Of a stretch of DNA of 64,000 bases, positions 5,471-8,620 are shown in pieces. The DNA is from Natronogracilivirga saccharolytica (GTDB taxonomy: Bacteria > Bacteroidota > Rhodothermia > Balneolales > Natronogracilivirgulaceae), in NCBI RefSeq assembly GCF_017921895.1, contig NZ_JAFIDN010000006.1, positions 62,001 to 126,000 of the forward strand. Direction: 5' to 3'. The translations under genes and the position numbers were made by a program. How positions within the stretch are numbered: position 1 is the stretch's first letter; every line of letters starts with the position of its first letter. The notes below the pieces were generated by a model. The model made no database searches and was not told the DNA's origin. It was given only the letters and a program-made list of their open reading frames with translations.

Positions 5471-5795
5471 TACGTTTCCGTGAGGATATGACATTTTTTT
5501 TTAGTTGCCCGTTATTTCGCTTCGCTATACACACCAGGTAATATCTCCGAAGAGAGTTCTGATGTACACCTTTGCACTTAATTCATTAGCGACGGCGAGG
5601 ACATTACTGACTGGGGAGGAGCTCCGGCCCTATGCAAACGAAAAACTTCGATGAACCAGAAGGATTTGCTGAGAACAGCACAAAATAGATAACACAAGTG
5701 GCCTCCACTGTATTCATTTATTCAGTATACAGACTGATATTACCATTGCATACATGATCATGCTTTGCATTTAAATACAAACACCAGAACTAAAA
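5471..5795. other. Intergenic stretch, no gene seen; likely promoter region of the peptide genes
   Basis: No frame with coding character is visible. It holds an inverted pair CTGTAT/ATACAG around 5709-5733 and a CATGATCATG palindrome near 5753-5762, both upstream of the peptide gene. Either could be an operator, but neither is supported beyond symmetry. Confidence 0.3.
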
Positions 5796-5808
5796 AAGGA
5801 GGACTATC

Positions 5809-6003
5809 ATGGGTGATAGAAGATCTGCTCTGCTGCAAAACCTGTCCCCTGAAGAGAGGACCGGCATCCACGGCGGAGGCGTTATCACTACTGCCATTGT
5901 ATCGTTTTTAAGCGCTACGGCTTTCCACACTTTAAAAGAGGCCTACAATGACTGGGAGGCACATGTAGAAGCCTTCAACGAAGGAAGGGAAAGTATGCAG
6001 TAA
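5809..6003 (+). CDS. Double-glycine-leader peptide precursor 1 (bacteriocin-like)
   Basis: A 64-residue peptide behind a very strong ribosome-binding site (AAGGAGG at 5796-5802, 6 nt before ATG). Its first 24 residues match the GG-type leader used in Bacteroidota and class II bacteriocins: LQNLSPEERTGIHGG, i.e. a hydrophobic residue, Leu-Ser, two acidic residues, Ile and Gly-Gly. Cleavage after GG would release about 40 residues beginning GVITTAIVSFL, with a hydrophobic helix (with SFLSA, an SxxxA packing motif) and an amphipathic acidic tail. A second GG peptide follows 32 bp later and a small membrane protein after that. A peptidase-C39 ABC exporter would be expected, but none lies in the window. 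Bacteriocin function is inferred; a signalling peptide is the alternative. Confidence 0.72.
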   Translation: MGDRRSALLQNLSPEERTGIHGGGVITTAIVSFLSATAFHTLKEAYNDWEAHVEAFNEGRESMQ

Positions 6004-6035
6004 TCACTGAAACTATAACAAAAGAGATGAGATAA

Positions 6036-6215
6036 ATGGATACCTTGAACACTAATGTCAAAGAACTCACTAAAAGTGAACTGACCAGCATCAACGGTGG
6101 AGACGACTTGTCGGAGAGCATCTTCCGTTTTTTTGGCAAGATTGTCGGAGCTATTGAAAACTTTGAGTTTGACAGTGATGTCGCAAGCTCAGGAGTTGGG
6201 CGCGTTACCCGATAA
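6036..6215 (+). CDS. Double-glycine-leader peptide precursor 2 (bacteriocin-like)
   Basis: A 59-residue peptide, ATG at 6036 with GAGATGAG upstream and TAA at 6213. The leader VKELTKSELTSINGG fits the GG consensus better than precursor 1. The predicted mature peptide has about 37 residues: an acidic start (DDLSES), an amphipathic or hydrophobic helix IFRFFGKIVGAIENF carrying a GxxxG motif (GKIVG), and a Ser/Gly-rich end. Two adjacent GG peptides, one with GxxxG and the other with a small-residue xxx motif, are how two-peptide (class IIb) bacteriocins are built; that family match is inference. The gene is co-directional with precursor 1 and probably co-transcribed. Confidence 0.72.
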   Translation: MDTLNTNVKELTKSELTSINGGDDLSESIFRFFGKIVGAIENFEFDSDVASSGVGRVTR

Positions 6216-6217
6216 CA

Positions 6218-6259
6218 GCAACTGATTTTATCTGTCGCATCACACAGAGAATCAGTTGC
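6218..6259 (+). other. Stem-loop directly after the second peptide gene
   Basis: The arms GCAACTGATT (6218-6227) and AATCAGTTGC (6250-6259) are perfect complements. An inner TCTGT/ACAGA pair (6231-6235, 6244-6248) extends the stem, with an 8-nt loop. It starts 3 bases after the TAA. No T run follows, so it may stabilise the 3' end of the peptide mRNA rather than terminate. Confidence 0.6.
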
Positions 6260-6280
6260 ATTAACAGACAAGCTGCATGA

Positions 6281-6316
6281 GCAAGAGGGGCAGTTGTTTC
6301 TGGCTGCTCCTCTTGC
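6281..6316 (+). other. Second strong stem-loop before the membrane-protein gene
   Basis: GCAAGAGGGGCAG (6281-6293) pairs with CTGCTCCTCTTGC (6304-6316): 13 bp with a single G-T pair and a 10-nt loop. It ends 17 bp before the next ATG and lacks a T run. It could attenuate or process the transcript so that the peptides are made in excess over the downstream protein. Confidence 0.55.
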
Positions 6317-6332
6317 GTAAAATTCTGAGACT

Positions 6333-6566
6333 ATGATAAAAAAGTTAAGAGCCTTCTACCGGTCATACTGGCGCAAAATCATGCTCTACTCACTCATACC
6401 CGCGGTTGCCGCTCTTATTTTTATCGAAGGGTATAATTTTCTTTCAGGCTATGATGACTTCAGCATACAACGGGAACTGAGTATGTTCGTCCAGTTTTAT
6501 ATCATTGCGTTCATTGTGTATTCGGTATCATATTACCGGAAAAAAAGGAAAAGCAATCAGCATTAG
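6333..6566 (+). CDS. Small two-helix membrane protein, candidate immunity protein
   Basis: A 77-residue basic protein with two predicted membrane segments, IMLYSLIPAVAALIFIEGY (about residues 16-34) and MFVQFYIIAFIVYSVSYY (about 51-68), and a Lys/Arg-rich end RKKRKSNQH. I recognise no family. It lies downstream of the two GG-leader peptides in the same direction, separated only by two hairpins. Small basic multi-helix membrane proteins in that position are often bacteriocin immunity proteins, so this is the leading guess; an unrelated orphan membrane protein is possible. No clear ribosome-binding site is visible. Confidence 0.55.
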   Translation: MIKKLRAFYRSYWRKIMLYSLIPAVAALIFIEGYNFLSGYDDFSIQRELSMFVQFYIIAFIVYSVSYYRKKRKSNQH

Positions 6567-8183: not shown

Positions 8184-8620
8184 AAAGTGCACACGAAATA
8201 CCCATGACAGAGCATAAGCACTGACACACAGGCGTATTATTAAAAACTGTCATGGTATTTCACATCGTGACCTTAGGTTCACCTTTCATTATAAATCGAA
8301 AATTTTAAACAGATGAAATGAACATGACCGGGTCGGCGCCCGGACACACAGGCGCATGATTACATACGGTCATGACATTGCATGTGACGACATAAACCCA
8401 AACATTTAAACAGATGAAATGCCCATGGCGGCTTACCGTCACACAGGAGCATGATTATAGCCAACATGGGTACTACATGTGACGTCAGAATCACAAATTA
8501 TAAACACATGAAATGATCATGACCGGCTGAAATCCGGACACACATGAGCATGATTAAAACGTCATGGACATTCTATGTGACCGCTTGAATCAAAAAATTT
8601 TAAACACATGAAACGAAACT
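8184..8620. repeat. Tandem array of four ~95-123 bp units, each a covarying hairpin
   Basis: Units: 8184-8306, 8307-8407, 8408-8501 and 8502-8601, with a fifth beginning at 8602. Units 2-5 open with AAACAGATGAAATG or AAACACATGAAAYG. All four full units carry a conserved core (CACACAGGMG or CACACATGAG then CATGATTA or TATTATTA; 8223-8242, 8343-8362, 8439-8457, 8537-8556). The core lies in the loop of a long stem whose sequence differs between units but stays paired: GAAATAC..CATGACAG with CTGTCATGGTATTTC in unit 1, CATGACC/GGTCATG in 2, CCCATG/CATGGG in 3, CATGAC/GTCATG in 4. A small inner GC hairpin sits 5' of the core in units 2-4. No reading frame runs through. Confidence 0.82.

Follow-up and report, generated by a model that had tools for sequence, protein, structure and literature searches.

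A row of three small genes on the forward strand of the window (the whole 64,000-nucleotide stretch analysed here), pepA, pepB and a gene for a protein with two transmembrane segments (two-TM), is fairly likely to be one of several dispersed cassettes for secreted two-peptide antagonism. On this reading the cassettes would be linked by a common operator, served by a peptidase-C39 exporter encoded on another contig (C9), protected by their two-TM proteins, coordinated by an HTH protein and tuned by an RNA hairpin. Secreted two-peptide antagonism systems have hardly been described in Balneolota, and antiSMASH found no bacteriocin cluster in strain Omega, a soda-lake relative (PMC6243061).

The trio in the window

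The earlier note described a 64- and a 59-residue peptide encoded in tandem and followed by a basic two-TM protein of 77 residues, and translation of the open reading frames (ORFs) gives exactly these products. pepA (5809-6003, + strand) encodes the 64-residue peptide, whose mature part is GVITTAIVSFLSATAFHTLKEAYNDWEAHVEAFNEGRESMQ with a net charge of -4; the sequence ahead of its start is AAAAAAGGAGGACTATCATG, and the ribosome-binding site pointed out there is the Shine-Dalgarno sequence GGAGGA (5798..5803, + strand). pepB (6036-6215, + strand) encodes the 59-residue peptide, with mature part DDLSESIFRFFGKIVGAIENFEFDSDVASSGVGRVTR and net charge -3, and the two-TM gene follows at 6333-6566 on the same strand. 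Upstream of the trio, on the opposite strand, lies a gene for an outer-membrane beta-barrel protein, and downstream a gene for a GYD-domain protein. No neighbours of the window trio, the GYD-domain gene included, were shared in the relatives checked, so that an empty-site comparison is impossible. PADLOC gave no match to the trio, and Rfam nothing in the region beyond a sub-threshold chance match. A palindromic repeat array with units of roughly 115-125 bp occupies window 8190-8620, and a copy of this repeat (80% over 66 nt) lies in the pepB/two-TM gap of the related genome G003 (L019 10383-10448).

Leaders and mature peptides

Double-glycine (GG) leaders had been claimed for both peptides. 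pepB is recognisable by its leader alone because it scores 26.4 bits against a leader matrix, ranking first among 450 small ORFs of the window at a level reached by no ORF in 40 shuffled windows. It also exceeds the cut-off of the NCBIfam bacteriocin-signal family TIGR01847 (16.1 bits, cut-off 15.7) and is the sole protein in the genome to do so. The matrix comprises 12 positions and was built from 81 distinct leaders adjoining C39 exporters of other Bacteroidota; it favours canonical leaders, as its training seed already demanded the GG motif. The leader of pepA is weak evidence by itself: it ranks second of the 450 ORFs with 7.4 bits, a score of which 0.4 are expected per shuffled window, and carries Arg rather than Leu or Met at position -7. 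pepA is accepted as a GG-leader peptide because of its homologues and its position.

The helix motifs of the earlier note fared unequally. The GxxxG motif of pepB (GKIVG) is present, and a small-xxx-small motif recurs in six of the seven pepB peptides compared. The SxxxA motif assigned to pepA is not conserved; all eight homologues compared do share a small-xxx-small motif (AxxxG/GxxxG) at the same place in the alignment, and in the window peptide this motif reads AFNEG. AlphaFold2 models pepA as all-helical with low confidence (pLDDT 58), a result not counted as evidence, and a search of solved structures gave no relative of pepB. A 92-residue protein of genome G082 with an AFNEGYEAG stretch was dropped as a pepA homologue, as it lacks a GG leader.

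The exporter and the trio in relatives

The earlier note observed that no C39 exporter is encoded in the window, which is correct, and proposed a search of the genome for one and of the relatives for the same trio. The genome (3.75 Mb, 49 contigs) contains one peptidase-C39 exporter over the cut-off, on contig C9: a full C39-ABC protein with an HlyD gene upstream. Its catalytic motifs (DCGAAC, His and Asp-Pro) are invariant in five relatives, and its best relatives of solved structure are annotated as ABC-type bacteriocin transporters. The genes behind the exporter, on the same strand, encode an HTH protein and then a pair of GG-leader peptides and a two-TM protein, in the trio order of the window. 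Pairwise identity between the two trios is just 21-28%, too low for a recent duplication. The window also encodes a TolC-type outer membrane efflux protein (879-2333, - strand) that adjoins a TetR gene and is a possible candidate for the outer-membrane partner of the exporter.

The named relatives bear out the earlier placing of the host as Balneolota-like, supporting the order Balneolales. In relatives the leaders and membrane protein are conserved together and directly beside the exporter. Neither of the two findings by which the earlier note would have been refuted, a genome lacking any C39 exporter or a failure of leaders and membrane protein to be conserved together, was obtained. The closest trio is that of G003 (record SLOL01), a Balneolales MAG of the same family, with pepA 46-49% identical and the trio directly ahead of HlyD and exporter. 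The arrangement of G013 (SKXL01) matches that on C9, and in G048 the order is HTH, pepA, pepB, two-TM, HlyD and then the contig end. A case outside Balneolota is a Cytophagales MAG (L125 9281-10049), where the genes right behind the C39 exporter are pepA, with a profile E of 5e-10, pepB and one for a two-TM protein. This trio was reached via its exporter; the phylum-wide pepA profile search (395 genomes) gave credible matches confined to the same order. pepA homologues thus adjoin C39 exporters, in the order pepA, pepB, two-TM, in G003, G013, the C9 locus and the Cytophagales MAG, and HlyD in G048. G060 has an orphan peptide pair far from its exporter and no recognisable two-TM gene. A related pair of GG peptides adjoins the exporter of the named strain Rhodohalobacter sulfatireducens WB101 (L098 9591-9996).

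Among 54 named Bacteroidota loci holding this exporter, a GG peptide lies within 4 kb of it in 47, a tandem GG pair is found in 28, and 15 have such a pair with a small TM ORF behind it. Over six trios, the distances for pepA, pepB and the two-TM protein show a correlation (r 0.85-0.92; permutation p 0.003-0.008), modest evidence since the six taxa share ancestry.

The two-TM protein and the hairpins

Hydropathy and an AlphaFold2 model (a two-helix hairpin, pLDDT 77) describe the third gene product as a small membrane protein, in the window with basic N and C termini. It is the putative immunity protein of the trio. The gene keeps its position in the trios, with sequences so weakly conserved (24-31%) that chance resemblance is possible among small hydrophobic proteins. 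A solitary homologue occurs in G009 (L022 6897-7088), as expected of an immunity gene; neither peptide nor C39 exporter was detected in that genome, which at 88% completeness makes these absences weak. Weak matches in G023, G026, G035, G043, G053 and G054 were dropped as they lie in unrelated loci or inside other ORFs.

The earlier note mentioned hairpins, and two strong ones lie in the gap between pepB and the two-TM gene: one at 6218..6259 and another, with a 15-bp stem, at 6281..6316 (both + strand). The gap folds with -48.2 kcal/mol (z -5.1). Every trio checked has a strong hairpin after its last peptide gene, unrelated in sequence from one trio to another. Of 61 stretches that follow the final GG peptide in named loci, 56% have z below -2, a share that drops to 17% behind peptides other than the last and to 18% at the upstream control position. 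Most of these hairpins have no clear T-run, the hairpin on contig C2 (see below) having one, and their role may be transcript termination or processing.

A shared operator and a third trio

Gibbs sampling of 15 upstream regions returned a 22-bp motif with a consensus near CACTGTATTTATTTGTTCAGT, at 23.2 bits as against 10.9-11.7 in shuffled sets, the fit being poor in G003 and G048. At most exporter loci, the motif and the 3' end of the HTH gene overlap. In the window the candidate operator is the 20-bp near-palindrome ACTGTATTCATTTATTCAGT (5707..5726, + strand), 83 nt ahead of pepA and with no HTH gene nearby. The exact pattern occurs nowhere else in the 3.75 Mb genome, and matches with one mismatch lie at the C9 exporter locus and on contig C2.

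The C2 site led to a previously unsuspected locus that the leader searches had missed. A GG peptide begins 57 nt on, and its C-terminus DGDVARSGVGSMVR matches that of window pepB, DSDVASSGVGRVTR, to a degree equalled by none of 2000 shuffles. The rest of this third trio (contig C2 446600-447275, L249) consists of another GG peptide, then a hairpin of 16 bp and a two-TM ORF of 72 residues; the trio also carries AAAAAAGGAGGTATCATG, near-identical to the pepA Shine-Dalgarno GGAGGA. Operator sites precede GG peptides in G067 (three sites), G061 (C17) and G058 (C76) as well; in G004 the site on C57 precedes a frame-broken GG peptide and two others end at contig edges. Seven sites in control genomes or of divergent variants have no GG peptide behind them; sites outside the family pattern, in G024, G036, G038, G065 and G058 (C9 and C100), serve as such negatives. 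The division into pattern variants was drawn after the motif had been seen. As the one-mismatch pattern has a few chance matches per genome, the evidence lies in the GG peptide behind a site and not in the site alone. Used in this way, the motif is a search handle for such cassettes.

The HTH protein beside the exporter

The HTH protein encoded just downstream of the exporter usually has a leader-like feature of its own. Near the C-terminus of 35 of 39 distinct proteins of this kind is a [GA]G pair, with L at -12, E at -8 and I/L/V at -4, followed by a tail of about 14 residues; 18 of the 39 real sequences reach 8 bits, compared with 0.2% of shuffled ones. Examples are L002 7804-8187 (contig C9), L098 9204-9557, L115 9198-9524 and L112 5849-6250, with others elsewhere. 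The glycine codons vary (16 combinations), which indicates selection at the level of the protein; the sequence of the tail behind the glycines is possibly shaped by DNA function, as it overlaps the operator in several loci. Balneolales genomes have at most one such gene, present in 22 of 126, and the ABC signature of the exporter is found at 16 of the 22 loci.

We tentatively suggest, as a possibility more doubtful than the cassette reading itself, that the C39 exporter binds or cuts the HTH tail, so that export capacity would set a regulator controlling the dispersed cassettes via the operator. The limited open-access literature consulted contains no description of an HTH protein with a GG tail. 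Its occurrence by exporters across Bacteroidota offers a testable new idea for the coupling of secretion and regulation.

Proposed function and alternatives

The interpretation offered by the earlier note, a bacteriocin or signalling system, is supported, and we favour the antagonistic version. The window trio and those on C9 and C2 would then be three dispersed cassettes. pepA and pepB would be made as leader-bearing precursors, cut after the double glycine and exported by the C9 C39-ABC/HlyD exporter with a TolC-type outer membrane partner. Once outside, the mature peptides, which would be helical, would probably act jointly on the membranes of close relatives, the producer being shielded by the two-TM protein from within its inner membrane. 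The common operator would coordinate the cassettes, probably bound by the exporter-side HTH protein, and the hairpin behind the second peptide gene would probably terminate or trim most transcripts, such that peptides exceed immunity protein.

A role in signalling, with the exported peptides serving neighbours as pheromones and the two-TM protein belonging to a sensor or modulator instead of being an immunity protein, appears unlikely. GG peptides have an established pheromone role in streptococci, and an operator common to the cassettes and a regulator gene adjoining the exporter would suit such a system. A signal, however, needs neither two distinct peptides in each cassette nor as many as three cassettes that have diverged; no histidine kinase was seen beside the trios, and the fast divergence of the sequences is reminiscent of an arms race.

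The gonococcal Naps (PMC11798529) and cyanobacterial EbfG (PMC4997328) demonstrate that a GG peptide paired with a C39 exporter can have a function other than an antibacterial one. Peptides that, like the Naps or EbfG1-4, act on the producer itself or its matrix by promoting autolysis or biofilm formation therefore have precedents that share both peptide type and exporter, but the small membrane protein co-conserved in each cassette fits protection better, and we think such a role distinctly improbable here. That the peptides are precursors of modified products, of lanthipeptide or radical-SAM type with enzymes encoded elsewhere, is far less probable still: GG leaders are common among such precursors in Bacteroidota (PMC10352776), but pepA and pepB of the window contain no cysteine and inspection by eye of the exporter-adjoining ORFs in L002, L019 and L064 revealed no obvious modifying enzyme. 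Chance small ORFs, which the unexceptional leader of pepA might on its own suggest, are already refuted by conservation, since homologues recognisable at the protein level keep this order across several genomes, and operator, ribosome-binding site and hairpin match.

Comparison with known systems

The cassettes are best read as class IIb-like or Cdz-like. Class IIb bacteriocins kill by means of both peptides together and are typically cationic, although the charge is perhaps not a defining property. The mature peptides here are anionic (0 to -6 across the family), for which reason membership of class IIb is not claimed; the median charge of Bacteroidota GG peptides generally is -1, and several of the relatives come from soda-lake sediment. 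The phylum is different too, and the family-level sequence match is to the leader only. In common with class IIb systems (PMC8538875) such as lactococcin G and carnobacteriocin XY are the adjacent pair of GG-leader peptides, the GxxxG-like motifs, which are so common as to be weak evidence, and the C39 exporter, found here with HlyD on another contig and adjacent in relatives. The membrane immunity proteins of class IIb have one to four TM segments (PMC6957408), and the putative counterpart here has two.

Bacteroidetocins (PMC6671954), too, come from Bacteroidota and combine GG leaders with a C39 exporter. They differ in being single basic peptides with four cysteines, accompanied by a thiol oxidoreductase and a five-TM protein and without an immunity protein, whereas inspection of the trio loci by eye showed no ORF for a thiol oxidoreductase. 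The pneumococcal blp/cib and plantaricin regulons resemble the present arrangement in having several bacteriocin cassettes, one operator and one exporter. Those regulons are controlled by a pheromone, a histidine kinase and a response regulator, whereas an HTH protein of the one-component type, ending in a GG tail, is the sole regulator seen here.

The Cdz system of Caulobacter (CdzABCDI, PMC5380434), which kills on contact by way of surface aggregates, is also Gram-negative, with two small secreted proteins and a type I exporter with its fusion protein. A small inner-membrane immunity protein is co-encoded there, its counterpart here being putative and the likeness one of architecture only. 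The cassettes of the window type are distinguished from Cdz by their dispersal and by the operator common to them.
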